A stretch of 64,000 bases of DNA, from contig JABIFY010000106.1 in the NCBI GenBank assembly GCA_018650465.1, forward strand, positions 1-64,000. Reading direction: 5' to 3'. Below the pieces are notes generated by a model. It did no database searches. It was given only the letters and a program-made list of their open reading frames with translations, and had not been told where the DNA came from. Source of the stretch: Alphaproteobacteria bacterium. GTDB taxonomy: Bacteria; Pseudomonadota; Alphaproteobacteria; UBA2966. Of this stretch, positions 8,019 to 27,605 are shown piece by piece (the stretch's first letter is position 1; every line of letters begins with the position of its first letter). The translations under genes were made by a program, and so were the position numbers.

Positions 8019-8492
8019 TCAAGTCAGCGGTTCGAGATCGCTTTCCAAAACGGCTTCACGAATTTCTACAGGTGTTGGTGCGGCTTCGGCGCGGGCCGCG
8101 TGGCGCAGCAATGTCGTCAAGGTGATGGACTGCAAGGTGGCGCGGGTCAGGTCTTCGATTTCATCTCCAACCATTTGCAGAGCCCGGCCGATGCCGGTAC
8201 CCACACTGGCACCGGAAACTTCAAAATCCGAAGCGAGGTTATCTTCGAACAGGGCGACCACATCATACAGGGTGATACGGTTGGGATTGGCAGAAAATTT
8301 ATACCCACCCCCGGCCCCACGGACCGATTGGATCAAGCCAGCGCGGACCAACTGACGCATAACCTTGGCCAGGTGGTGCACAGATATATCATAAGCTTCG
8401 GCAATTTCGCCGGTGGCCAGCTGGACCTCAGGATCACGAGCCAGCTCCAGAACGGCGAACAAGGCGAAGGTTGTTGATTTCTGGATTTTCAC
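8019..8492 (-). CDS. Rrf2 family transcriptional regulator without cysteines
   Basis: MKIQKSTTFALFAVLELARDPEVQLATGEIAEAYDISVHHLAKVMRQLVRAGLIQSVRGAGGGYKF wHTH typical of Rrf2; no Cys in translation. Confidence 0.85.
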   Translation of the reverse strand: MKIQKSTTFALFAVLELARDPEVQLATGEIAEAYDISVHHLAKVMRQLVRAGLIQSVRGAGGGYKFSANPNRITLYDVVALFEDNLASDFEVSGASVGTGIGRALQMVGDEIEDLTRATLQSITLTTLLRHAARAEAAPTPVEIREAVLESDLEPLT

Positions 8493-8998
8493 AATACTGC
8501 CCCATCGTCATCGTCCAGGGAAAACTCCAGCTGGACATAGGGGCCTGCCGTCATGCCGAGACTGCGAAAAAATGACAGGTTCAGGGTATCGCGGCGGGAG
8601 ACATTGGTCCGCACACTGGCGACGCCGTCGCTGCGAAAGTGGCTGAACATGGCTTGTACCAGGACACTGCCCACACGATGTTCGCGCACGTCCGCTGTAA
8701 CACCCAAGCCAAAAACCCAGCCACAAGGGGGCGAGCCAAATTCCCAGGCCCGGACCTCACCAAGGGCAAAGCCAACAGTTTCTCCCGCCAGGTCCGCGAC
8801 CAGCAAATAGCGCTGGTTATCTTCAACACCAACATACTGGTTAAAAATATCTTGCCAGTAGTCAGGTTTTGAAACCCCGCTGGTCTCGGTGTCGAGGTCG
8901 ACGATGCGTTGGTAATCTCCGGCCATTGCCTGCCTGATCGCCAAAGATGGCGAGGGGGTGGCGAGGGTATCAGGTATTTCGGTATCAGAATGCGACAT
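8489..8998 (-). CDS. GNAT family N-acetyltransferase
   Basis: LGVTADVREHRVGSVLVQAMFSHFRSDGVASVRTNVSRRDTLNLSFFRSLGM. Confidence 0.8.
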   Translation of the reverse strand: MSHSDTEIPDTLATPSPSLAIRQAMAGDYQRIVDLDTETSGVSKPDYWQDIFNQYVGVEDNQRYLLVADLAGETVGFALGEVRAWEFGSPPCGWVFGLGVTADVREHRVGSVLVQAMFSHFRSDGVASVRTNVSRRDTLNLSFFRSLGMTAGPYVQLEFSLDDDDGAVL

Positions 8999-9074: not shown

Positions 9075-9482
9075 TTATTCCGGAACGACAGCTGTCACTT
9101 CAAGCTCGATCTTGCCTGGGTTATCCAGCAGGTCGACGACAAAGATCATGCTCATGGCAGGAAAATGGCTGCCCATGAGTTCTTTCCAGATTTTGCCGAT
9201 ATCCCGGCGAGCGGCCATATAGGCCGGTTTGTCACAGCAAAATGCCGTCATGCGACAGATATGTTCAGGCTTGCCACCGGCTTCGGCGAGAATGGCAATA
9301 ATATTCAGTAAGGCCTGGCGAAACTGGGGTGCGATTTCTTCTGATTCGAAAACCTGTTCAGCGGTCCAGCCGACCTGACCAGCGAGGAAAACAAGTCTGC
9401 CGGGCTTGGCGGCGATACCGTTGGAATAACCGATAGCCGGTTTCCAGCCTTCGGGAAGAAGTACGTCGTGGGGTGTTGTCAT
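9075..9482 (-). CDS. RidA family protein
   Basis: GIAAKPGRLVFLAGQVGWTAE...QFRQALLNIIAILAEAGGKPEHICRMTAF...MSMIFVVDLLDNPGKIELEVTAVVP. Confidence 0.9.
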   Translation of the reverse strand: MTTPHDVLLPEGWKPAIGYSNGIAAKPGRLVFLAGQVGWTAEQVFESEEIAPQFRQALLNIIAILAEAGGKPEHICRMTAFCCDKPAYMAARRDIGKIWKELMGSHFPAMSMIFVVDLLDNPGKIELEVTAVVPE

Positions 9483-9532
9483 TATTTTGTTTCCTTATGG
9501 TCATTTTTCCTGATCAGGAACCTTTGCACTCG

Positions 9533-9559
9533 GTCACTCCGGGGCAAGCCCGGAGTGAC
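9533..9559. repeat. REP-like perfect palindrome
   Basis: GTCACTCCGGG-gcaag-CCCGGAGTGAC, 11-bp perfect arms, same family as 19952-20048. Confidence 0.75.
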
Positions 9560-9582
9560 GAGGTGTATGGATTTGGTTCCCC

Positions 9583-10101
9583 TCATTCCTGTAACATGGG
9601 CGGGTCCATATCTTCGTCCCAGTCGTGCTCGGGCTTGGGATATTTTTCCAGCCATTTGTGCAGCCACTCAATATGTTCACGCTCTTCCAGTGCCATTTCC
9701 GTGGACAGGCTGCGAACCTGTTCGTCTGTTGTATTGTCGGCAATGCGCTGGAAAAAGTCGGCGGCGCGTTCTTCAGCTTTTAAGGACATGGTCAGGGCGT
9801 GGTGCGGCGTCATCATGTAATGTGCCTCCATGTCGACGACAGCTTCGGGTGACTGGCCACCTTCCCATTTATATTCCCAAGGTGCGATATGCGGGATCGG
9901 CGTGTCGCCTGCCTTGTCATCGATCTTGGTGATGTGCTTGCCTTCGATTTCGGCCAGTTTGTGGAACAGTTCAGCCACTTCGGTGTTGTTGTGCACTTCC
10001 ATCTGTTCTGCAAGATCGGCGTATTGCGAGGCTGCTTCAGCTTCCAGCGCGTGAGCATGGGCGAGAAACTCACCGATGTTGTTAATATCCAGGGTACTCA
10101 T
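9583..10101 (-). CDS. Rubrerythrin-type ferritin-like diiron protein
   Basis: Two ExxH motifs (EGKH, EREH) in four-helix context; start overlaps korB stop. Confidence 0.75.
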   Translation of the reverse strand: MSTLDINNIGEFLAHAHALEAEAASQYADLAEQMEVHNNTEVAELFHKLAEIEGKHITKIDDKAGDTPIPHIAPWEYKWEGGQSPEAVVDMEAHYMMTPHHALTMSLKAEERAADFFQRIADNTTDEQVRSLSTEMALEEREHIEWLHKWLEKYPKPEHDWDEDMDPPMLQE

Positions 10102-10937
10102 AATGCGAACTTTCCTTCGAGATCGGCAACCGTAGCCGAAGCGTTACCAATCGGGGGCTGAAAGGCTTCCCGCTCGCCCCGGTAAAGGACGCCAACGTTA
10201 AAGCCATCATCGGTCATCAAACGACGGGCCGCGCGGCCCAGATCGTCTGTCGGATCGACCGTTGCGTCATGTACATCATCTTTCCATTCCTTTTGGTCAG
10301 GGCGAAAAGTGACGCAGGGGCTAAGGATCTGAACGAAAGAGAAACCTGGATGTTCAATGGCTTCTTTCAACAGCTTGGCCGTGCCGTTCTGGTCGCCAGA
10401 AAAACCACGGGCGATAAAGTTGGCACCGGCAGCCAGGGCAATGACCAGGGGACGGAACGGGCTGATGCCCGAGCCGCCGGGGGTCAAGGCATTATCCCAG
10501 TCCGGCTCGGTGGTGGGTGAGGCCTGGCCTTTGGTCATGCCGTAAACCCGGTTGTCCATGACCACATAGGTCAGATCGACATTACGACGGCAGGCATGCA
10601 TGAAGTGGTTGCCGCCAATGGAAAAGCCGTCACCGTCACCACTGGCAACCAGCACGGTCATATCCGGGCGGGCAACCTTCAGACCCGCTGCCAGCGGCAG
10701 GGAACGTCCATGCACGCCGTGGAAGCCATAGCAGTCTGTGTAAGCAGGGATGCGCGAAGAACAGCCAATGCCGGAGATCACCGCAACATTTTCCGGATCC
10801 AGATTCAGTTCGGAAAAGGCCTTGGTGATGGAGCCGAGGACCGAATAGTCTCCGCAACCAGGGCACCAGACAGGCTTGATGTCGGATTTATAATCACGGG
10901 GCGTGTGTTTTGGGGTGATGGCCGTTTCGGCGGTCAT
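10098..10937 (-). CDS. korB: 2-oxoacid:ferredoxin oxidoreductase beta subunit (KorB-like)
   Basis: KPVWCPGCGDYSVLGSITKAF, GIGCSSRIPAYTDCYGFHGVHGRSLPLAAGLK, GDGDGFSIGGNHFMHACRRN. Confidence 0.9.
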   Translation of the reverse strand: MTAETAITPKHTPRDYKSDIKPVWCPGCGDYSVLGSITKAFSELNLDPENVAVISGIGCSSRIPAYTDCYGFHGVHGRSLPLAAGLKVARPDMTVLVASGDGDGFSIGGNHFMHACRRNVDLTYVVMDNRVYGMTKGQASPTTEPDWDNALTPGGSGISPFRPLVIALAAGANFIARGFSGDQNGTAKLLKEAIEHPGFSFVQILSPCVTFRPDQKEWKDDVHDATVDPTDDLGRAARRLMTDDGFNVGVLYRGEREAFQPPIGNASATVADLEGKFAL

Positions 10938-12679
10938 GATGGTGTTCCTTCCTTGACCAGAGATACGATGTCGCCGGGGCGCATCGGCAATGGGCCGGGG
11001 ATGCAATAATGTTCGGCATCTCTGGGCAGATCGATATTGGCGCGCAGATAGCCCATGAATTGGCCGCTGTGGGTTTGTTCAACGACGATGACGCGTTTGG
11101 CACCTTCAAGGGCTTTTGTCAGCTGATCCTTTGGTGCTGGCATCAGCAAACGCATGCTGATCATGCGAGCGGCATCGTCCGTACCCGCCAGGTTTTCCAA
11201 AGCTTCGAGGACCGGACCTGTGCAACTGCCCCAAGTCAGAACAACGGTATCACCTTCACCGGCCTGATCTGCCCAGTGCTGGCCATAATCAAAGTCATCG
11301 GTTTTGCGCTGGCGTTTGTCCAGCTGGATGTGGTGGTCTTTGGCCCCGCCGGACGGTGTTCCACGCGGGTTATGCTCCAGACCATCTGCGGTGTAAGCAC
11401 AGCCCGGTGTACCGGGTAAGGCCATAGGTGAAACCCCGGAGGCGGTCACGGCGTAGCGCTGATAGTTTTCTCCTTGTGCCGGTGTGGAGGCTGTTTCACG
11501 CTGGGCAATGAAAGCGATATCCGCCGGGGCGGCAATCACTGATTTAGCCTGGCCCAGGGCCTGATCACTCAAGACAATGGCAGGTGTTTGCATGGCCTCG
11601 GCCAGGTGCACTGACCATTGCGTCGTAAAGACACAGTCGCGAATGGAATTGGGTGCGACCACAATGTGCGGTGCATCACCCGGCAAGGCATATAAAGCCA
11701 TGTTCAGGTCAGACTGTTCCGACTTGGTTGGAATACCGGTGGATGGGCCGCCGCGCATGACGTCGACGATCACGACCGGGACTTCACTGGCGACAGCAAG
11801 GCCAATGGCTTCGGTCATCAGGGCAAGGCCGGGGCCGGAGGTGGCCGTCAGGGCAGGGACCCCGCCGTAAGACCCACCAATAGCCATATTAATAGAAGCC
11901 AGTTCATCTTCCGCCTGAACCAGCACGCCGCCGACCTTGGTCAGGGCAGGGGACATCCATTCAAGGATTTCCGTGGCCGGGGTAATGGGGTAGGCAGCGA
12001 CAAATCGCACGCCACCGCGAATGGCACCAAGGCCTGCCGCTTCGTTACCACTGATTAACCAGCGTCCGGCTTTCTCACCTTCGGGTGTTGGCAATTTTGG
12101 TGTCGCTGGCATGTCAGCGGCAACGCTGCGTCCGGCTTGTGCACCGGCACGGCTGGCGGTAATGGCATCCTCGCCCCGCTTGGCCAGGGCATCGCTGAGG
12201 GCGGCATCCAGGGCGTCTTCCGGTAAACCGATCAGGGCACCGACTGTGCCCAGGGCGATCATGTTGGGACGACCGCCGGGAATGGCCTTGGACAAATTCT
12301 TGAAATCAATGTCGCCGCGTCTGGCTGGTCCCTCGGTGACAAAGGCAGGCGTTTTTTTAGCCGCTGAGGCATCGCCAATAATGACAGTATTTTCGTCCAG
12401 CGGAATTTCATCGGCGAAACGCTCAAAGTTCATCCAGTCCAGGGCAATGATCAGGTCATAGCGGTCGGGCTGGGCTGAAACGGGTTCCGAAGACAGGCGC
12501 AAGAGGGCAGCAGCTTCACCGCCGCGAATTTGCGGCCCGGCAGAACGCGTCATCAGGCCATACCAGCCAGCCTTGGCGGCGGCGGCCAGCAGCATATTGC
12601 CAGCCGTAATCACACCCGATCCGCCGCTTCCGGCGAGCACCAGTGAGATGCTGGTCGCATTGTCAGTTGGTTGGTTCAT
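10934..12679 (-). CDS. korA: 2-oxoacid:ferredoxin oxidoreductase, fused gamma-alpha subunit (KorA-like)
   Basis: GSGGSGVITAGNMLLAAAAKAGWYG (gamma) followed by GNEAAGLGAIRGGVRFVAAYPITPATEILEWM (alpha); start at MNQPTDNATS. Confidence 0.9.
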   Translation of the reverse strand: MNQPTDNATSISLVLAGSGGSGVITAGNMLLAAAAKAGWYGLMTRSAGPQIRGGEAAALLRLSSEPVSAQPDRYDLIIALDWMNFERFADEIPLDENTVIIGDASAAKKTPAFVTEGPARRGDIDFKNLSKAIPGGRPNMIALGTVGALIGLPEDALDAALSDALAKRGEDAITASRAGAQAGRSVAADMPATPKLPTPEGEKAGRWLISGNEAAGLGAIRGGVRFVAAYPITPATEILEWMSPALTKVGGVLVQAEDELASINMAIGGSYGGVPALTATSGPGLALMTEAIGLAVASEVPVVIVDVMRGGPSTGIPTKSEQSDLNMALYALPGDAPHIVVAPNSIRDCVFTTQWSVHLAEAMQTPAIVLSDQALGQAKSVIAAPADIAFIAQRETASTPAQGENYQRYAVTASGVSPMALPGTPGCAYTADGLEHNPRGTPSGGAKDHHIQLDKRQRKTDDFDYGQHWADQAGEGDTVVLTWGSCTGPVLEALENLAGTDDAARMISMRLLMPAPKDQLTKALEGAKRVIVVEQTHSGQFMGYLRANIDLPRDAEHYCIPGPLPMRPGDIVSLVKEGTPS

Positions 12680-12893
12680 TACCTTGTTCTCCTTGGCCGT
12701 GGCAGCAAGCTTGCTGGGGTCGTGGCAGCAAGCGGGCTGTTTTGTGGCTCTTGTGACGCTTGTGGGGTCAAATGCTCTCAATACGCTATTACGGCCTGTT
12801 TCTGCCATGTTCGGAGGCAAATCGGGGCATAAGTTTGCCCTTTTTCGCTAATCCGAAAGTTTTTGAAGAAGACCTTACTTTTTGTCTTGACTC

Positions 12894-12924
12894 TTAAATT
12901 GGTAATCGGGTACTAAATTACATA
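12894..12924. promoter_or_regulatory. Candidate operator copy 1 (korAB / oah divergent region)
   Basis: TTAAATTGGTA-atcggg-TACTAAATTACATA; flanking 25 bases identical to 22910-22940, only the 6-bp centre differs; dyad 8/11. Confidence 0.75.
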
Positions 12925-13041
12925 ATAAAGATGTAACACCAGATTAGTCAACCTTAAAAAAGACCTGAAAAAGAGAATTTTCGAAACGGCCTCAAACACA
13001 CACTGTTTAACGACGCACACTGTTTAACAAGGAACCCCGCA

Positions 13042-14151
13042 ATGAACGCCCCTGAAACCCTGAACGATCATAACCTGGTACCCGAAGCCATTGTCCCTGG
13101 TGTGTTGTATGAAAAACGCCCGGTCAAGGATAACAAAGGCGCGGACGTCCCTGGCCTCTATAATGCCTGGATCACCCTGGATAATCCCAAGCAGTATAAT
13201 TCCTACACTACTGACATGGTGAAAGGTGTGATCCTTGCGTTCCGCCAGGCGTCTTCTTCACGTGATGTTGTGACCGTTGTCTTTACCGGCTCCGGCGACA
13301 AGGCATTTTGTACAGGTGGCAACACCAAGGAATATGCCGAGTATTACGCTGGCAACCCGCAAGAATATCGCCAATACATGCGTCTCTTTAATGACATGGT
13401 CTCTGGCATTCTGGGCTGTGACAAACCGGTCATCTGCCGCGTCAACGGCATGCGCATCGGCGGCGGTCAGGAAATCGGCATGGCCTGTGATTTCTCCATC
13501 GCCCAGGATTTGGTCAAGTTTGGCCAAGCCGGACCGAAACATGGTTCGGCTGCCATCGGCGGTGCCACAGACTTCCTGCCTTTGATGATTGGTTGCGAGC
13601 GCGCCATGGAAACGGGCATGTTGTGTGAGCCCTGGACCGCCCACAAATCATACCGTTTAGGCGTTTGCCTTGATATCGTGCCCGCCCTGAAAGTGGATGG
13701 CAAATTCATCGCCAACCCAACCGTGGAACTGGAATACACAGACGAATTTGGTCGCATCATCCATGGTGAAATGAAAACTGGTGAAGCCCTGGAAGCTGGC
13801 AAAGCATTGCTGAAACAAGGTGAAGTTGACCTTTCTTTGCTGGATGCCCGGGTCGAAGAGCTGGCCACCAAGCTTCTTTATACTTTCCCTGATTGCACAA
13901 CCAAATCAGTTGAAGAACTGCGCAAGCCCAAACTGGCAGCCTGGAACCTGAACAAGGAAAATTCCCGCGCCTGGTTGGCCAACAACATGATGACCGAAGC
14001 CCGCGCCGGTTTCCGTGCTTTCAATGAGCCTGTTGGTCGCGAACGTGAAATCGACTTCATCGATCTGCGCCAGAAGCTGGCCGTCGGCACACCATGGTCG
14101 GACGAGCTGACCGAAAGCCTGATGCCTGCCGCCCGGGTTGCAGCCGAATGA
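13042..14151 (+). CDS. oah: 6-oxocyclohex-1-ene-1-carbonyl-CoA hydrolase
   Basis: Crotonase-fold with extended N-terminus PGVLYEKRPVKDNKGADVPGLYNAWITLDNPKQYNSYTTDMVKGVI, GGNTKEYAEYYAGNPQEYRQYM, typical Oah/BamA. Confidence 0.93.
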   Translation: MNAPETLNDHNLVPEAIVPGVLYEKRPVKDNKGADVPGLYNAWITLDNPKQYNSYTTDMVKGVILAFRQASSSRDVVTVVFTGSGDKAFCTGGNTKEYAEYYAGNPQEYRQYMRLFNDMVSGILGCDKPVICRVNGMRIGGGQEIGMACDFSIAQDLVKFGQAGPKHGSAAIGGATDFLPLMIGCERAMETGMLCEPWTAHKSYRLGVCLDIVPALKVDGKFIANPTVELEYTDEFGRIIHGEMKTGEALEAGKALLKQGEVDLSLLDARVEELATKLLYTFPDCTTKSVEELRKPKLAAWNLNKENSRAWLANNMMTEARAGFRAFNEPVGREREIDFIDLRQKLAVGTPWSDELTESLMPAARVAAE

Positions 14152-14915
14152 GCTCGCCCCTGAAAGTCTGGCTTGACCGTGATGGTCAGTTGTTGCGCCT
14201 GAGACTGGCGCAGCCAAAGGCCAACATTGTCGATGCGGCAATGATTGGGGCCTTGTCAGATGCTCTGGAAAGCCATCTCAACGTCAGCACCTTGAAGGCT
14301 GTGCTGCTGGATGCCGAAGGATCACACTTTTCCTTCGGTGCCAGTGTTGAAGAACATATGCCTGATCAATGTGCAGACATGCTGGCGGCCCTTCATGCCC
14401 TGGTGCTGAAACTGGCCGGTGCACCTGTACCGGTTCTGGTTGCGGTTCAGGGACAATGCCTGGGCGGTGGTCTGGAAGTGGTTCTGGCCTGTAGCCGGAT
14501 TTACGCCGCACCTACCGCCGCTATGGGTCAGCCGGAGATTAAACTGGCTGTGTTTGCCCCGGCGGCATCTTGTTTGCTGCCAGGCCGGGTGGGTCAGGCA
14601 TGCGCCGAAGACCTTCTCTATACCGGTCGCAGTGTCAGCGGTGAAGAAGCCGGTGCCATGGGCCTGGCGGATGTCGTCACCGACGATCCTGAAGCCGCAG
14701 CCCTTGCATACTTCGATAAATATCTCGCCGGTGTCTCGGCCAGTACCTTGCGTCATGCGGTTCAGGCCGCCCGCAGCCCTCTGGTCCAGCAACTGGAAAA
14801 AGATCTCGCCCGTGTCGAGCGTCAATATCTCGACCATCTGATGTCCACGCACGACGCGGTAGAAGGCCTTGAAGCCTTCGTCGAGAAGCGTCAACCAAAA
14901 TGGGAGCACCGTTGA
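14148..14915 (+). CDS. dch: Cyclohexa-1,5-dienecarbonyl-CoA hydratase
   Basis: Crotonase family MSSPLKVWLDRDGQLLRLRLAQPKANIVDAAMIGAL; ATGA overlap with oah; position before bcrCBAD. Confidence 0.9.
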   Translation: MSSPLKVWLDRDGQLLRLRLAQPKANIVDAAMIGALSDALESHLNVSTLKAVLLDAEGSHFSFGASVEEHMPDQCADMLAALHALVLKLAGAPVPVLVAVQGQCLGGGLEVVLACSRIYAAPTAAMGQPEIKLAVFAPAASCLLPGRVGQACAEDLLYTGRSVSGEEAGAMGLADVVTDDPEAAALAYFDKYLAGVSASTLRHAVQAARSPLVQQLEKDLARVERQYLDHLMSTHDAVEGLEAFVEKRQPKWEHR

Positions 14916-14918
14916 GCC

Positions 14919-16082
14919 ATGTCTGTTCAGAAAATCGTTGATCGCTGTCAGGCTCTGTATGACGACCTTGATTTCAATGCCGTCAAAGAGTGGAAAGCGA
15001 AAGAAGAAGGACGCAAGGCCATTGGCTATATGCCGGTCTATGTCCCGCGCGAAATCATACACGCCGCAGGCATGTTGCCGGTCGGTGTTCTTGGTGGCGG
15101 TGACCAGCTGGAAGTTATCCACGGTGACGCTTACTATCAGAGCTACATTTGCCGTATTCCACGGTCGACCATCGAACTGGGTGTCACCGGTCGTCTCGAC
15201 TGTGTTGACGGCATGTTGTTCCCGTCCATCTGTGACGTGATCCGAAACCTGTCAGGCATGTGGAAGCTGTTGTTCAAGGACAAATATGTCCGTTACTTCG
15301 ATGCGCCGCAAACCTATGACGATAATATCGGCGGCAAGTTTTATAAACAGGAAATGCAGGAGCTGATTGAAGGTCTGGAAGAGCTGGGCGGTCGCAAGAT
15401 CACCGATGAAGACCTCAACAATTCCATCGCTGTTTACAACGAAAACCGCAATGTGATCGATGAGCTTTATGCCTACCGCTCGAAGGCACCATGGAAAGCC
15501 CTGACGTCTGAAATCTATCTGCTTCTGCGGGCTGGCATGGTTTTGCCGGTTGAAGAGCACACCGAATTGCTGCGTGAGTATCTTTCCGCAATCGAAAAGG
15601 AAGACCGGCCCGTACGCGACAACTGCCGCGTTGTCCTGAACGGAACGTTCTGCGAGCAGCCCCCGTTGGGTCTGGTCAAATCCATTGAAATGGCTGGTTG
15701 CTACATTGTTGATGACGACTTCATGCTGGTCACACGCTGGCTGCAGGAAGACGTACCAACAACCGGCGATCCGGTTCAGAACCTGGCCGATGCCTTCTTG
15801 CATCAGTCCGCTGAAACGGCTGCCAAATACGTTGACACCGAAGAAGCCAAAGGCAATTTCATCGTCGACAGTGTCAAAAAATATGCCGCTGAAGGTGTTG
15901 TCTTTGCGGCCCCAAGTTTCTGCGATCCAGCTTTGCTGGACCAGCCGATGCTGCATACCGCACTGAACAATAACAACATCCCGTTCACCGCTTTTCAATA
16001 TGCCGAGAACTCAGGGCAGATGCAGCCCATTCGCGAGCAAGCCGGTACCTTCGCAGATTCTATCAAGCTTTGGAGTGCATAA
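14919..16082 (+). CDS. bcrC: Benzoyl-CoA reductase subunit C
   Basis: 2-hydroxyacyl-CoA dehydratase/BCR family: VPREIIHAAGMLPVGVLGGGDQLEVIHGDAYYQSYICRIPRSTIELGVTGRLDCVDGMLFPSICDVIRNLSGMW. Confidence 0.95.
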   Translation: MSVQKIVDRCQALYDDLDFNAVKEWKAKEEGRKAIGYMPVYVPREIIHAAGMLPVGVLGGGDQLEVIHGDAYYQSYICRIPRSTIELGVTGRLDCVDGMLFPSICDVIRNLSGMWKLLFKDKYVRYFDAPQTYDDNIGGKFYKQEMQELIEGLEELGGRKITDEDLNNSIAVYNENRNVIDELYAYRSKAPWKALTSEIYLLLRAGMVLPVEEHTELLREYLSAIEKEDRPVRDNCRVVLNGTFCEQPPLGLVKSIEMAGCYIVDDDFMLVTRWLQEDVPTTGDPVQNLADAFLHQSAETAAKYVDTEEAKGNFIVDSVKKYAAEGVVFAAPSFCDPALLDQPMLHTALNNNNIPFTAFQYAENSGQMQPIREQAGTFADSIKLWSA

Positions 16083-16083
16083 C

Positions 16084-17379
16084 ATGAATATCAAAGATCA
16101 GGCGTCCACAGTCGCTGAAAAAGAAGACTCCATGTGGAAACAAAAGGAGATGATCAACGAAAACTACGAATTGCTGTCGACAGCAAACGAACGTGGTCAG
16201 AAGGTCGCTTCCACATTTGTGCCGGGCAACATCAATGAATTGCTGATGTGCTTTGATTTCGCCCGCAACTTCCCGGAAACAAATGCCCTGCAAAATGCCA
16301 TGCGTAAAAAATCCGGTGGCATGATCATGGAAGCCGAGAAGTCTGGCCACTCAGAAGATGTTTGCACCTACGTGAAAGCCGATCTCGGCATGATGATGAA
16401 AGGCAACAAAGGCCCGACCGGTTTGCCAATGCCAGATCCTGATTTGCTGATGCTGTCCTACACGGGTTGCTTCACATTTATGAAGTGGTTCGAGCTGGTA
16501 CGTGAGCAGTATCCCCAGTGCGAAACGGCCATGCTGCATGTGCCTTATCAGGCTGACGGCAACATCACCAAGAACATGCGGGACTATGTGGTCAAGCAAT
16601 TGAAGGAAGACATCATCCCGACCATGGAACGTGTGTCCGGTGTGAAGTTTGATATCGACCGTTTGCGCGAATACATGATCCAGTCGCAAAAGGCTGAAGA
16701 TGATTTGGTCTATGTGCTGCAAAGCGCCAAGAACAAACCATCCCCCATCGATGCCTATTTTGGTGGCGTTTATTACATTGGCCCAATCTTCACAGCCTTC
16801 CGCGGCACCACAGCGGCGACCGATTATTACGCAACCCTGCGCAAAGAAATCGAAGCCCGTGTCGCAGCCGGTCTCGGCCCGATTACACCTGAAGGTGTGA
16901 TGAAGGAAGAGAAGTATCGCATCGTTGTCGAAGGTCCACCAAACTGGACTCACTTCCGTGAATTTTGGAAAATGTTCTATGACGAAGGCGCTGTCGTTGT
17001 GGCCTCAACTTATACAAAAGTTGGCGGTGTTTATGACAATGGCTTCCGCCACGATCCGCAGAACCCATTGGAATCACTGGCTGATTATTGCCTGGGTTGT
17101 TACACCAACCTGAACTTGCCGGCCCGTACGGACATGCTTGAAAAGTATATTGAGGACTATCAGGCTGATGGTCTGTTGATCAACTCGATCAAAAGCTGCA
17201 ACAGCTTCTCAGCTGGTCAGTTGTTGATGCTGCGTGAAGTTGAACAGCGCACAGGCAAGCCTGCCGCCTTCATCGAAACCGACCTGGTAGATCCGCGTTA
17301 CTTCTCGCCTGCCAACGTCAAAAACCGTCTGGAAAGTTACTTCCAGATGATCAGCCAAAAACGCGACCGCGCGGCGTAA
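16084..17379 (+). CDS. bcrB: Benzoyl-CoA reductase subunit B
   Basis: [25 protein letters not shown]..., [35 protein letters not shown]; start at MNIKDQAST. Confidence 0.95.
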
Positions 17380-17393
17380 AGGAGTATCTGATT

Positions 17394-18728
17394 ATGGAAT
17401 GTTATATCGGTATTGATCTCGGTTCCACGACCACAAAAGCTGTGGTCATGGACGAAGATTACAACGTCCTGGGTCGCGGGATTACAAACTCTCGATCCAA
17501 CTATGACATCGCTGCAGGTGTGGCCAAGCACGAAGCTCTGATCGATACGCGCTTCATGCTGTTCCGCAATGCCATGAAAAATGTTGCCGCCCTGGGCGAC
17601 AAATACGAAATCTTCATGGACGAGCTGGAGCGTAATTTCCGCCTGGAGCAGTATCTGGAACAACTGATTGATCTGGATGAAACCTGCACCAAGGCTTCCG
17701 AAAACACACGTTACACCGAATGGGGTTCGGACTTGACCGAAGCCCTGGCCGGTGTGTTTAAACGCGTGGCCCTTGAGGCCCCGGATTTATTCGCCCCCGG
17801 TGCCCAGCGCAAATCAGACTTCTTCCGTGACATTGCCGGTTCGCAATATTCCACGATCAGTGAAGAAGTTGCCAAGGAAGCAGACACCCCGTTCGATGTG
17901 TTGCTCAACATCTATGACCGTTCAATCATTGACGTTGAAAACCGCATCTACACAGAAACCACCAACCAGAACCTGATGCGGGCCCTGGACCGGACTTTGG
18001 TTAACTTACCCGATCTGGCACCGGTTGCTGATGAAGTTCGGACCGAAGTCCAGAAGGTACTCGGCATTGATCTGGAAGAAACCTACGTCATTGGAACCGG
18101 TTACGGTCGCGCCCGTTTGCCGTTCTCCAAGGATCACATCCGCTCGGAAATCCTTTGTCACGGCTTGGGTGCCCACATCATGTACAACGATACCCGTACC
18201 GTGCTGGATATCGGTGGCCAGGATACCAAGGCTATTCAGGTGGACAAAGACGGTATCGTCGAAAGCTTCCAGATGAATGATCGTTGTGCTGCCGGTTGCG
18301 GTCGCTACCTCGGTTACATCGCCGACGAAATGAATGTCGGCCTGCACGAACTGGGCCCGATTGCCATGGAATCAACCCGCAAAGTGCGGATCAACTCCAC
18401 CTGTACAGTGTTTGCCGGGGCGGAACTTCGGGATCGTTTGTCCCTTGGTGAAAACCGCTCAGATATTCTGGCTGGTTTGCACCGCGCCATTATCCTGCGC
18501 GCCATGTCGATCCTGTCGCGGTCTGGTGGTGTGCATGACCAGTTCACCTTTACCGGTGGTGTGGCCAATAACGAAGCCGCAGTTTCAGCCTTGCGCGAAT
18601 TGATCAAGGAAAACTATGGCGACGTCACGATCAACATTGATCCGGACTCAATCTATACCGGTGCCCTGGGCGGTTCTACATTTGCTCGTCGCGCCGTCGA
18701 AGGTATCCCAACGGAGGCAGTAGCATGA
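17394..18728 (+). CDS. bcrA: Benzoyl-CoA reductase subunit A (ASKHA ATPase)
   Basis: [57 protein letters not shown]. Confidence 0.95.
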
Positions 18729-19567
18729 CCATTGCAGCAGGAATTGACGTCGGAACAGGCGCTGTAAAAACCACCTTGTTCAAAGTCGAAGGTGACAACG
18801 TTGAATGGTTGTCCAAACGCGTCACCCGGATCCGTCGTCGTGACCCCATGTCTCTGGTCGATGAAAGCTATGCGGCCATGCTTAAAGAAGCCGGCCTGAC
18901 AGCTGATGACGTGGACTATGTGGCCACAACAGGGGACGGCGAAAACGTGCCGTTCCGTACCGGTCACTTCTATTCCATGACCACACATGCCCGTGGTGCT
19001 GTTTATCTGGCCGAAGATGTGACAGCGGTGCTGGATGTGGGTGCCCTGCACGGTCGTGCCATCAGCATTGACGAACGCGGCAAAGTGCTGAGCTATCGCA
19101 TGACCAGCCAGTGTGCGTCCGGTTCCGGTCAGTTCCTTGAGAACATTGCCCGTTATCTTGGTGTTTCCATTGACGAGGTTGGTGATCTGTCACAGCAGTC
19201 GGATGATCCTGAGCTGGTCTCCGGTATCTGTGCTGTGTTGGCCGAAACTGACGTGATTAACATGGTTTCGCGCAGTATCTCGACGCCCAATATCCTGAAA
19301 GGTATTCACCTTTCCATGGCTGGTCGTTTGGTGAAGTTGCTGCGTGCCTCCAAAGTCAAGGAAGGCAAGGTTTTGCTGACCGGCGGTTTGGCCATGGATA
19401 CGGGTATGGTTGCGGCCATGCGCGAGGAAATGGCAAACCAGAAACTGGACGTGCCGTGTGAGAGCAGCCCCGACAGTATTTTTGCCGGTGCCATCGGTGC
19501 CGCCTTGTGGGGCGCTTTCCGTTATGAAAAACTACAAAGCCTGGGGCAGCTCGCTGAAGCGTCCTGA
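18725..19567 (+). CDS. bcrD: Benzoyl-CoA reductase subunit D (ASKHA ATPase)
   Basis: [69 protein letters not shown]. Confidence 0.95.
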
Positions 19568-19593
19568 GTATAAGTAAGTAACAAGGAGAATAA

Positions 19594-19842
<249 letters not shown>

Positions 19843-20301: not shown

Positions 20302-20892
20302 TCAATCTTCCCTGAGTTCGAATTTTGGCAATATGGTTTCGAAGGGCGTCTCCAACGGATCGATCATACCGGACCGTGCCAGATGGACGTAGCCCTGGAC
20401 CAGTGACCAGACCAGGGTTTCGATGGCCTTTTCATTCATCGTCCCGGATCGGAATGGTGCGCAGGCTTCTGCCAGAACGCCATAGGACGCTGACGATGTG
20501 CGCTGGAATTCAGGGTCGCTTGTGTAGAACCGGTCCTTCATAAACATCAGGGTGGCAACGGCTTCATATTCGCGGGAAAAGGCGATGTAGCCCTGGCAGA
20601 TACCTTCCAATTGCGCCTGGGGCGTGTCTGCCGACTGATCCCTGGCATCTATCATGTAACGGGTGAAGGTTTCGAACCCCTGGGCCACGATTGCCGTCAA
20701 CAAACCCTTCAGTCCTTTGAAGTGGTGGGCAGGGGCCGCGTGGGAAACACCTGCCCGGGCGGCACATTTACGTAAACTCAAGGCACCCAGGCCACCTTCT
20801 GCCAGCAGAGAAATACCAGCTTTAACAAGGGCTTGCTTCAGGTTTCCGTGATGGTGACGTTTTCCGGTGCGGGCGGCAGGCGCTTTTGTCAT
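20302..20892 (-). CDS. TetR/AcrR family transcriptional regulator
   Basis: RHHHGNLKQALVKAGISLLAEGGLGALSLRKCAARAGVSHAAPAHHFKGLKGLLTAI. Confidence 0.92.
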   Translation of the reverse strand: MTKAPAARTGKRHHHGNLKQALVKAGISLLAEGGLGALSLRKCAARAGVSHAAPAHHFKGLKGLLTAIVAQGFETFTRYMIDARDQSADTPQAQLEGICQGYIAFSREYEAVATLMFMKDRFYTSDPEFQRTSSASYGVLAEACAPFRSGTMNEKAIETLVWSLVQGYVHLARSGMIDPLETPFETILPKFELRED

Positions 20893-21665: not shown

Positions 21666-22601
21666 TCAGGCGACTTTGCGTTCCAGAGCCAATTGGTCAG
21701 AAGGTCCAAAACCATGTCTGTACAGGAAGGCCAGCAGGTCAAAGTTTTCGCGGCGGACTTCGGTGCGCACGTGGTCAACTTGCAGACCGGACAGGTTCAT
21801 CAACAATTGTGAGATCAAGGCAGAAGCGATGCCGTGATGGCCCTGGTTGGGGGCAACGCCGATAGTGTCGATGACGGCATAGGGTTCGGTTTCACCAAAA
21901 TCGCCAAAGTCCATGCGGGCCATGACAAAGCCGGAAACAAAACCATCTGTTTCAGCCACCAGAGAGACCCGGATTGCCGATTCGTCCAGGGCCTCTTTCA
22001 TGGCGCTTTGCAGATAGGTCGATCTGTCATCGCCGGTGATTGCGCGGTCAATGGATGAAATTGATTTAGCATCATCTGCGGTCATCAGACGTACATAAAC
22101 CCGGTCACGTGCCAGGGTGCCGCCGTTGGCATCAAGATCTTCGTCGGTGGAGAAATGAACGCGGGAAGTATCGCACTCGACCACATGCCGGGGCGCCATC
22201 TTGAAGCCCTGATGATCGAAGAAACGCAACAGGTCGTGTGACGTCCATGCCGCGTTGGTTTGCATCGACTTCAAACCCTTGTGCTTCAGCACGTCATCGA
22301 TCCCACTCAGCAAAGCCTCGCCGGTGCCGTGATGATCGTGGGCCGTATCGACGGCCATGGCTTCAAGGATCGCTGTTTTTGACAAACCAAATTCACCGTC
22401 GATCAAACGGGCCATGGCATAACCAACCAGGCTGCCATCTGCTTCGGCACCGACCTGAATGTAGGTTCCCTGGTCGGCCAGAACGGCCTCAAGGCGTTTG
22501 GCAAAAAAGCCGCGACGTGAACGCGCCACATGTTGACGGTCGATTTCAACAACCTCATCAAGATCGGATGCCTTGAGAGGACGGATCGTAATTTGTGACA
22601 T
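21666..22601 (-). CDS. Tandem-domain GNAT acetyltransferase
   Basis: Two GNAT repeats: ITIRPLKASDLDEVVEIDRQH...AVDTAHDHHGTGEALLSGI and YVRLMTADDAKSISSIDRAI...IGVAPNQGHHGIASALISQLL. Confidence 0.85.
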   Translation of the reverse strand: MSQITIRPLKASDLDEVVEIDRQHVARSRRGFFAKRLEAVLADQGTYIQVGAEADGSLVGYAMARLIDGEFGLSKTAILEAMAVDTAHDHHGTGEALLSGIDDVLKHKGLKSMQTNAAWTSHDLLRFFDHQGFKMAPRHVVECDTSRVHFSTDEDLDANGGTLARDRVYVRLMTADDAKSISSIDRAITGDDRSTYLQSAMKEALDESAIRVSLVAETDGFVSGFVMARMDFGDFGETEPYAVIDTIGVAPNQGHHGIASALISQLLMNLSGLQVDHVRTEVRRENFDLLAFLYRHGFGPSDQLALERKVA

Positions 22602-22648
22602 GCAGTTTCTCCTTGATGGGTACTTTAAAATCGAAATTTTGCGAAGGG

Positions 22649-22858
22649 TCAGACCCAGGCTGATGGAATATGGGCGGCGTCGATAGTGTGATTACCAAGC
22701 CCGCTCAGCGATCCTTCGACGGCTGGCAGCGGGGCAGCGGCGTCGGGGATTGTCTCAGCGACTTCGATCAATCCGTGTGACAGGGATTGAAAAAGGGAAC
22801 TGACAGACGCGCCTGGCCAAACGGTCGACGCATTGCCTTGAAAAGTTTGGATGCTCAT
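22649..22858 (-). CDS. Small protein of unknown function
   Basis: 69 aa ORF with AGGAAACG upstream of ATG; sits between candidate operator and tandem-GNAT gene. Confidence 0.5.
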   Translation of the reverse strand: MSIQTFQGNASTVWPGASVSSLFQSLSHGLIEVAETIPDAAAPLPAVEGSLSGLGNHTIDAAHIPSAWV

Positions 22859-22909
22859 GGCTCGTTTCCTGAACGAAGATCAATTTCCAGCAAAAATGGC
22901 GGGAACTGA

Positions 22910-22940
22910 TTAAATTGGTATACAAGTACTAAATTACATA
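22910..22940. promoter_or_regulatory. Candidate operator copy 2
   Basis: TTAAATTGGTA-tacaag-TACTAAATTACATA, see 12894-12924. Confidence 0.75.
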
Positions 22941-23047
22941 TTTAATTAAAATGAGTCAATAGTTTAAATGGCGCATGCGTTTCCGGATCGTCTGAAATTT
23001 GGTATATGTTTCCCGTAAAATCAGAAAATTGTCGATCAGGGGCAACT

Positions 23048-23732: not shown

Positions 23733-24722
23733 TCAGGTGGATAAGGCCTGCAGCAAGTTTTGGGTAAGTGTTTTTGACATGGCGGTCACGGCGCGGCGGC
23801 GATATTGCGGCTTTGTGGTCGTTGTTTGTACCGGGCTTGTCTGTTTTTGTACCAGTTTAGCTAGTTTTTGCCCCTGCTCTTCATCGAATTCCAGGCCGAT
23901 AAATTCATCGCAACCTGTGACCCGAATGGGGGTGGAATTGGTCCCGGTGACGGCGGCATCAAGGGACGTGATTTTGCCATTTTCGCTGGCGACCCGAACG
24001 GCAACGCCAGCGAGTGGAAAATCAATGGATTCGCGGATCCGCAGCTTGGTATAGCTTGATGCCATATTGCCTTGAGCCGGGGCCGGGATATGGATGGTCG
24101 TCACCATTTCGCCGGGCTTCAGGGTAAGATAATCAATGCCATCATCATTAAAAAGATCATCCAGCGGCACCCGGCGGGAACCATCTGGTCCGGCAATTTC
24201 GATTTGTGCATTCAGCACCAGCAGGGCCGGGGCTGTATCGCCCGAATAGGCGGCGTAGCAACGCTTTGAGGTCGGAACCACGTGGCAGATTTCGCCCTCA
24301 TATTTCATGCAACCATCGTTGCTGTCGCGCCACCACTGGCTCTGGTTATAAAAATAACACCGGGTATCAAGGCAGAGGTTTCCTCCGATGGTGGCAACTT
24401 CGCGATGGGTGGCACCAGCCACTGCCGCAGCGGCCTCGGCCAACACAGCATAGTCCTGTTGAATGCCAGCATCAGCAGCAAGGACCGCCAGGGTAACGGC
24501 GGCACCAATGTGTAAGCCGTCGCCATCCCGCTCGAAGCGTTGCAGTTCAGCAACGTTGGATAATTCGATTAAATTTTCCGTTGGCGTCAGGCCGCGACGG
24601 ATATTGGCGAGCAAATCTGTGCCGCCGGAAATATAGCGAGCCTCCTTCAGAGAGCCGCGGGTTTCAAGGGCTTCAGCTAAGCTAGCCGGGCGGTGAAGTT
24701 TGAATTGGGGTAAAACTTCCAT
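23733..24722 (-). CDS. hcrB: 4-hydroxybenzoyl-CoA reductase beta (FAD/[4Fe-4S]) subunit
   Basis: FAD-binding fold with insert CYFYNQSQWWRDSNDGCMKYEGEICHVVPTSKRC (C-X15-C-X7-C-X8-C); downstream of hcrA. Confidence 0.9.
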   Translation of the reverse strand: MEVLPQFKLHRPASLAEALETRGSLKEARYISGGTDLLANIRRGLTPTENLIELSNVAELQRFERDGDGLHIGAAVTLAVLAADAGIQQDYAVLAEAAAAVAGATHREVATIGGNLCLDTRCYFYNQSQWWRDSNDGCMKYEGEICHVVPTSKRCYAAYSGDTAPALLVLNAQIEIAGPDGSRRVPLDDLFNDDGIDYLTLKPGEMVTTIHIPAPAQGNMASSYTKLRIRESIDFPLAGVAVRVASENGKITSLDAAVTGTNSTPIRVTGCDEFIGLEFDEEQGQKLAKLVQKQTSPVQTTTTKPQYRRRAVTAMSKTLTQNLLQALST

Positions 24723-24732
24723 GATAATTTCC

Positions 24733-27120
24733 TTATTCCGCCGCGACTTTGTTGGCTTGCTCACGCTCAAATCGGGCGCGGGCTTCAAACAAACGGTCGG
24801 GGGTAATCGGTGTCTCTGTCATACGCACGCCCGTGGCCATTTTCACAGCATTGGCCATGGCCGGGATGAAACTGGGCAAAGATCCTTCGCCAGCTTCCTT
24901 GGCACCATACGGCCCGTTGGGATCGATACTCTCGACCATCTTGATATCCATGGGCGGGGACTCGACCATCGTCGGTACCCGGTAATCCAGCATGTTGCCA
25001 CTGATCAGAAGTCCGTTGTGATAGCGGGTTTCTTCCGATAGCGCCTGGCCCATACCCATCCAGGCTGATCCCTGAATTTGTCCTTCACAGGACAATGGAT
25101 TAAGGGCAAATCCAAGATCATGGGCGATCCAGATATTGTCGACGGTGACTTGTGATGTGTCGGGGTCGACGGTGACTTCAACCACTTCGGCAGAATAGGA
25201 AAAGCCCATGGTCGGACCCACCGCTGCACCGCGATATTTCCTGCCGCCTTGTGCTGAAACAGGTGTGGAGAACGTCCCCTTGGCCGTAATTGTGCCTTCG
25301 TCTTTCAGGGCCTCGATCACGACGTCCATATATTCAATGCCGGGATCCTGGCTGCCATCAACTCGATACATCGTGCCGTCAAATTCGATGTCTTCCGGCT
25401 TGGCGTCCAGCAAGGTAGCTGCGGCTTCTGCCAGAATCTGGCGCATATTGCGCGCCGCATCCAGGGCCGCGTTTCCAACCATGAAAGTCACCCGGGAAGA
25501 ATAGGAGCCATTGTCTTTTGGTGTGTGATCCGAATCGTTGGCCATCAGTTTAACCTGACTGACATCCAGATTAAGGGTCTCGGCCACACATTGAACAACC
25601 ATGGTACTGGAGCCCTGACCGATATCGGCGGCCCCGGTCAGCGCCGTAACGGCACCATCAAAATCAAGCTTCAGATTGACGACCGCGTGGGGCTCACCCG
25701 TCCAGTGCACAGGCTTGGCAGCACCGGAAACATAGTGCGCACAAGCCATGCCCAGGCCCTTGTTGGGCCCAAGGTTCTTGATGCGCTCATCCCAATTGCT
25801 TTCTTTTTGCACCCAGTCCAGGCACTCCGGCAAGCCATAGGAATTCACCATGATATCGTTGGCGGTATAGACCGGCGCATCCAGCAGGTTCTTGCGCCGG
25901 ACCTCAAACGGATCAAGGCCCAGTTCGTCGGCCATACGATCCATCAGGTTTTCAATGGCGAAGCGCACATTAACTGTGCCATGGCCACGAAAGGCCCCGC
26001 AAGGCGGTGTGTTGGTCAGCACCCGATAGCCATCATATTTAACGGCTGGGATATCATAAATGCCATACATCAAGGTGCCGGCATAAAGGATGGTGACAAT
26101 GCCGTAGGATGGATAACCACCACCGCGTTGCACGACCTCTGAGGCCAGGCCCGTCAGCTTGCCGTCCTTGTTCATGCCCATCTTCAGATTGACCTGGGTT
26201 TCAGGTCGGCCCCGGTGGGTAATAAAGGTTTCCTCGCGTGAGGTTGTCAGACGAACAGTGGATCCGGTGGCCTTGGCAAGATGGGCGCAGATTACCTCAT
26301 GATGCAGGGTTTCTGTGCGGGCACCGAAACCGCCGCCCACAAAAGGTTTGATCACGCGTACCTGGCCTTTATCCAGCCCCAGACAGCGGGCAAAGATCAG
26401 GTGACCATAGAAGGGCACCTGGGTTGATGGCCAGATGGTGAGATGCTTGCGAATGGGATCATATTCCGCCACAGCCGCATTAGGTTCCATGTGCACCTGA
26501 TTAACCTCGGCGCACTGATAGCTTTCTTCGACCACCAGATCAGAATTGGCGAACTCGGCTTCCGTATCGCCTAACTCAAAATGCACATCGCGTTCCAGAT
26601 TGCCTGTGCGGCTCTCATGCAACTGCTCGGCATCGGGCGCACGGGCATCTTCAGCGGTGTAATAGGCCGGCAGTTCTTTATATTCCACCTTGATCAGGCT
26701 GATGGCTTTGGCGGCGGTGGCGGCATCAATGGCGGCCACAGCGGCAACCGGTTCACCGCGATAACGCACCCGGCCATTGGCCAGGGGGAATTCCAGCATG
26801 GCGATCGGCAAAATGCCAAAGGGTTCGGGGGTGTCGTCGCCTGTCAAGACGCAGACCACACCGGGCAGGGCTTCAGCTTCTGATGTGTCGACGGAGAGAA
26901 TTTCTGCGTGGCTGTAGCGGCCATGCAGAATACGACCGACAAGGCCGTCCTGGCCGAGATCACCAGCATATTTGGCGCGGCCCGTCACCTTGTCGGGACC
27001 ATCAATCAGCGGCAGCCGTTCGCCAACGGAACGAACTTTACGCTCCGGATTGGGGCTGGGATCGGGATGGGGGTCGTTAGGGGTGACGCTGTCGCGTGGA
27101 TGTTGAAGTTCGTCACTCAT
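24733..27120 (-). CDS. hcrA: 4-hydroxybenzoyl-CoA reductase alpha (molybdopterin) subunit
   Basis: Xanthine-oxidase family: [62 protein letters not shown]. Confidence 0.9.
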
Positions 27121-27605
27121 TCTGCGGCCTCCGAACTTGAGTTGATGATATCGGCAGCGGCCTGCACAGATTCGATGATCTTGATATAGCCTGTGCAGCG
27201 ACAGATATTGCCGCCCAGTGCTTCACGAATATCGTCTTCGCTCGGCCTTGCGTTCTGGCGCAGTAAACCTTCCGAGGCCATGATCATGCCAGGGGTGCAA
27301 TAACCACATTGCGTGCCCAGTTTTTCGTGGAATGAAAGCTGCACGGCTGAGAGTTCTCCGCGTGTAGCCTGGCCCTCAACAGTTTCGATGACCTGGCCAG
27401 CACAGGAATGCGCCAGGGTCAAACAGGACAGCCGGGCACCATCACCAACCAGCACAGTGCAGGCACCACATTCGCCGCCATCACAGCCAAGCTTGGTGCC
27501 CGTCAGGCCACAAACCTCACGCAGGTAGTCGACAAGCAACATGTTGTCAGGAACAACATCTGCCCGGGGGCGACCGTTCACGGTCAATTGCAGGACGGCA
27601 TTCAT
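27117..27605 (-). CDS. hcrC: 4-hydroxybenzoyl-CoA reductase gamma ([2Fe-2S]) subunit
   Basis: [41 protein letters not shown]. Confidence 0.92.

Follow-up and report, generated by a model that had tools for sequence, protein, structure and literature searches.

In Rhodopseudomonas palustris, the benzoyl-CoA reductase operon badDEFGAB is repressed by BadM, an Rrf2 protein, and activated by AadR, a member of the FNR family (PMC6191541). Binding of BadM to its site, within a 212-bp probe from the badC-badD region, was demonstrated by EMSA. Aminobenzoates are acetylated by BadL, and in the presence of acetamidobenzoates BadM binds less strongly (PMC6191541). In Betaproteobacteria, the repressors BzdR and BoxR, which control the bzd and box genes of the benzoyl-CoA pathway, act through repeated short half-sites, TGCA repeats in the case of BzdR (PMC6449761). 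A survey of aromatic regulation in Betaproteobacteria looked for BzdR/BoxR sites ahead of the had-oah-dch-bcrCBAD-fdx operon of Thauera and found none (PMC6449761). The kind of system formed by BadM with BadL is already known, the repressor from one bacterium.

We analyzed a 64,000-nucleotide stretch of an alphaproteobacterial genome (the window) that carries a benzoyl-CoA reductase locus. Here we describe a palindrome that occurs at three places in the window and that we propose is the operator of a BadM-like protein encoded in the same stretch. This candidate operator would repress the oah-bcr operon, the kor-badLM operon and a tandem-GNAT gene, with a product of BadL relieving repression, a reading to which we assign a probability of roughly 85%.

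Results

The benzoyl-CoA reductase genes form an oah-bcr operon (13042..19842, + strand) comprising oah, dch, bcrC, genes for further reductase subunits and a ferredoxin gene, and its products match TIGR03200, TIGR03189 and TIGR02263 above the family cut-offs. On the opposite strand lie korA, korB and genes for a rubrerythrin and a RidA-like protein (9075..12679, −, taking an internal ATG as the korA start), followed on the same strand by a BadL-like GNAT acetyltransferase gene (8489..8998, −) and an overlapping gene for a BadM-like Rrf2 repressor (8019..8492, −). These genes probably constitute one kor-badLM operon. The Rrf2 assignment is supported by matches to PF02082 (E = 2.7e-28) and, above cut-off, TIGR00738. 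Beyond the oah-bcr operon is a gene for a tandem GNAT protein (21666..22601, −), both halves of which resemble BadL. A 4-hydroxybenzoyl-CoA reductase gene set (23733-27605, −), whose gamma subunit scores just below its family cut-off, adjoins the bcr cluster. We found no bcrC on known plasmids. As in R. palustris, a BadM-like Rrf2 protein and an adjacent GNAT protein are associated with a benzoyl-CoA reductase operon.

A reading of the window from sequence only had pointed to a 31-base element at 12894-12924, between the divergent korA and oah genes, 25 bases of which recur at 22910-22940 around a different 6-bp core. This description was exact in its coordinates: all 25 arm bases are identical, with 0 mismatches, shuffled versions of the window gave 0 matches, and the two 31-mers share 27/31 positions overall. 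Searching the genome (4.8 Mb in 163 contigs) with up to 3 mismatches recovered the element at 12894 and 22910 only, with no unrelated copies, and a reversed control pattern gave none at the same threshold. In a sister genome of the same genus (G003), whose Oah protein is 97% identical, both copies occur at the same places and are letter-identical, spacers included. In a genome of another genus (G002; Oah 72% identical), a diverged copy of the first site, CTTGACTCGTTAATTGGTATTGTAGTACTGATTTGCATAATAAGG, is found at the equivalent position.

Scanning 85,462 species genomes for BcrC yielded 80 loci, mostly from Betaproteobacteria with some from Alphaproteobacteria. Gap-free alignment of their kor/bcr promoter regions gave a single common motif, a 30-bp palindrome centered on GTAC with the consensus A(A/T)nnnGTATTnnGGTACCnnAATACnnn(T/A)T, in which half-sites recur every 8 bp. 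The motif scored at least 20 bits in 71 of 82 alpha- and betaproteobacterial kor/oah-bcr promoter regions, which are the loci used to build the matrix and include a few near-identical species. The reversed matrix reached this score in 0/82 regions, and each of twenty symmetric column-permuted matrices in 0 or 1. Regions below 20 bits were mostly cut by contig ends or had been wrongly set because korA was lacking. Since the matrix derives from these same regions, the weight of the argument falls on two independent tests: the badL leaders described below and a matrix made from 56 betaproteobacterial promoters alone. Applied to the window, the betaproteobacterial matrix placed sites at 22913 (29.7 bits), 8969 (29.5 bits) and 12897 (29.0 bits) at the top, with the next score at 6.9 bits; 60 Markov-shuffled windows had a mean of 8.1 bits and a maximum of 21.9 bits.

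The motif redefines the first site. Operator 1 (12897..12926, no strand; 30.2 bits with a matrix made without the window's family) takes in most of 12894-12924 and has its GTAC center at 12910-12913. The inverted repeat reported earlier does match at 8/11 positions about its own center, but the true symmetry lies 4 bp rightward, and that off-center dyad corresponds to two of the motif's half-sites. Centering on GTAC explains the conserved TACATA tail. Likewise, the spacers do differ between the two copies, as had been noted, but part of the supposedly variable core sits inside the true palindrome. The suggestion that the element is a transcription-factor operator is supported, as neither outcome named in that reading as refuting it was seen: the genome has no unrelated copies, and conservation upstream of oah and korA orthologs is strong. 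An anaerobic aromatic regulon is likewise supported, but its scope is wider than local, as the operator is common to Alpha- and Betaproteobacteria.

The window holds three candidate operators, not the two counted earlier. Operator 2 (22913..22942, no strand), upstream of the tandem-GNAT gene on the minus strand, scores 31.5 bits and is exact in G003. Operator 3 (8969..8998, no strand; 29.3 bits) lies over the first badL codons and overlaps the badL start as called from the ATG at 8998; in G003, it is kept with changes (24.0 bits). Translation of badL could also begin at a TTG roughly 19 codons further in. A relaxed genome-wide pattern matched 14 places, compared to 42 for its reversed control, and those outside the three window sites scored at most 18.2 bits. 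As this is too weak for a 4.8-Mb genome, we claim no more regulon members. The 18.2-bit match (C52:113331; L167:1496-1525), approximately 100 bp upstream of a gene for a TRAP-type substrate-binding protein, could be a chance match at such a score.

Operator 2 has a PPOX flavoprotein gene (+, 23006) on one side and the tandem-GNAT gene (−) on the other. In G003, the tandem GNAT gene stays beside the site and the gene across from it differs, making the tandem GNAT, the only conserved neighbor, the likely target; we rejected the PPOX gene for the same reason. A 69-amino acid ORF (22649-22858, −) separates operator 2 from the tandem-GNAT gene; this part of the window does not align with G003. Among the other genomes, only some have a clear site ahead of the tandem-GNAT gene. 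Several betaproteobacterial loci have a motif copy, then a hemerythrin-like gene, then the tandem GNAT, a recurring but incomplete pattern. Examples of such hemerythrin-like genes are L057:18433-18906, L067:17489-18040 and L062:17547-18041.

We examined how operator 1 is placed relative to promoter elements. A promoter-like site for kor-badLM (12922..12951, −) consists of TTGACT (12946-12951), an 18-nt spacer and TATTAT (12922-12927), with a 10/12 match, and its −10 element overlaps the operator. Offset counting over 68 distinct sites placed this −35 at a fixed distance from the operator (offset 49-51) in 24 of them. On the other strand, the sequence can tentatively be read as an oah-bcr promoter (12887..12916, +) with TTGACT (12887-12892), an 18-nt spacer and TACTAA (12911-12916). 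TTGACTC directly upstream of the operator is kept in the window, G003 and G002; because the −10, which falls inside the operator, is weak, we have low confidence in this promoter.

BzdR sites are TGCA repeats (PMC6449761), and no such repeats were present in 12680-13042 or 22602-23005; with none at the kor-oah gap, BzdR/BoxR was rejected as the regulator. On the bcr side, an FNR-like box (at most 1 mismatch) occurs at a fixed distance upstream in 32/68 related sites, where 0.3 were expected. In L056, L062, L067, L080, L115 and others, such a box (TTGAYNNNNRTCAA) precedes the operator by about 50 bp. The boxes in many betaproteobacterial loci recall activation by the FNR-type AadR in R. palustris, but the kor-oah gap of the window contains no FNR/AadR-type site, its best match having 3 mismatches. 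The FNR/AadR site is an accessory feature, separate from BadM binding.

A BadM ortholog (about 44-53% identity) was present in all 20 betaproteobacterial bcr genomes tested, most of which have no BadM within 10 kb of bcrC, and a badL gene lay directly upstream of badM in 20/20; the pair is also present in G003 and G002. Most related genomes have the motif ahead of badL. In all 12 loci where badL-badM lies away from kor, the pair carries a motif copy of its own, and of 17 further betaproteobacterial badLM loci, 15 have their own site and 2 lack one. Where badLM follows kor on the same strand, an own site was found in 0/9 loci; the window and its sister G003 are exceptional in having both this arrangement and an own site. 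An own site wherever badLM is apart from kor is what BadM autoregulation predicts. Of the two candidates put forward in the sequence-only reading, the Rrf2 gene at 8019 gained support, BadM-BadL being the sole conserved local regulator recognized, and the TetR gene at 20302 did not.

The BadM-like proteins also differ from the Fe-S Rrf2 regulators, which belong to the same superfamily. While Fe-S regulators of the IscR/NsrR type have three conserved cysteines, the 39 BadM relatives have 0-1, and the window protein has none. The usual three-cysteine cluster is therefore impossible, making an Fe-S sensing mode unlikely.

We weighed other explanations for the palindrome. The one that survives best, although we consider it improbable, is that another regulator, either unlinked or encoded at a poorly conserved position, binds the palindrome and controls both the bcr genes and badLM. 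The site and BadM co-occur near-totally in our sample, so co-occurrence alone cannot discriminate between the two, and two alphaproteobacterial genomes (G158 and G337) have the site on a contig where no BadM was found. However, among the bcr neighbors that are conserved over 22 loci and shared with the window, judged by cluster membership, BadM was the only DNA-binding family recognized. Moreover, the site tracks badLM wherever badLM leaves kor. A site that travels with a regulator gene is the usual signature of autoregulation. Finally, the benzoyl-CoA reductase operon of R. palustris is a known target of BadM (PMC6191541).

Two further possibilities are very unlikely. Palindromes of this size are bound by TetR proteins, and the TetR gene at 20302 is located between the sites at 12894 and 22910; but the G003 cluster, in which both sites are letter-exact, contains no match to this TetR, and the proteins that bcr loci have in common do not include it. 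Barring an unlinked copy in G003, we therefore rejected it. The second is that the conservation reflects core promoter elements alone, with no repressor site. The right edge of the motif does coincide with the TATTAT −10, and the −35 is at a fixed offset. However, the columns that carry most information (GTATTnnGGTACCnnAATAC) form a palindrome, unlike a promoter consensus, and they keep their shape where the flanks differ, both in the leaders of badL and close to tandem-GNAT genes. Least probable of all is that the similarity arose by chance or through a small mobile repeat. The 25 identical bases in two copies could stem from a copied fragment, but there are just two copies in 4.8 Mb and 0 in shuffles, and the element is conserved at the same promoter in dozens of other genomes, which refutes it.

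Discussion

A model that accommodates these observations places BadM on the 30-bp palindrome that the divergent promoters of kor-badLM and oah-bcr flank, where it would cover the kor −10 and, tentatively, core promoter elements of oah. By occluding both promoters, BadM bound at one site could repress both operons. With badL-badM closing the kor operon and carrying a site of its own, BadM may also limit its own synthesis, and at a further operator copy, site 2, it would repress the tandem-GNAT gene. By analogy with R. palustris, the GNAT enzyme BadL would make an acetamidobenzoate-type ligand that lifts BadM off. Such a switch would hold the genes for oxygen-free benzoate breakdown, and badM itself, off until the inducer appears. 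The sites, their conservation and positions, and the co-occurrence with badLM can be read directly from the genomes, whereas we infer that BadM is the protein bound, that it represses and which ligand releases it.

The proposed arrangement differs from that of R. palustris in several respects. Here, divergent kor and oah-bcr operons share one site, badLM has its own site, and the tandem GNAT is an extra target, accompanied by a hemerythrin gene in several betaproteobacterial loci. The features that appear to be new are an operator conserved across two classes, a switch common to kor and bcr, autoregulation of badLM, and the tandem GNAT as a target. If the known R. palustris BadM site has the same palindrome, the operator would instead be a confirmed known element in new hosts.

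More speculatively, BadM could be the long-missing repressor of the bcr operons of Alpha- and Betaproteobacteria and, in addition, the controlled tandem GNAT could make or remove an acylated aromatic inducer. We regard this combination as rather doubtful; if true, it would describe a feedback circuit of a repressor, BadL and a regulated BadL-like paralog.

The conserved operator names BadM as a candidate regulator of bcr genes in Betaproteobacteria, and the motif matrix lets the BadM regulon be sought in any genome. It also brings a BadL-like tandem acetyltransferase into the candidate regulon and would put kor, the ferredoxin-reducing 2-oxoacid oxidoreductase, under one switch with the reductase that it may feed.
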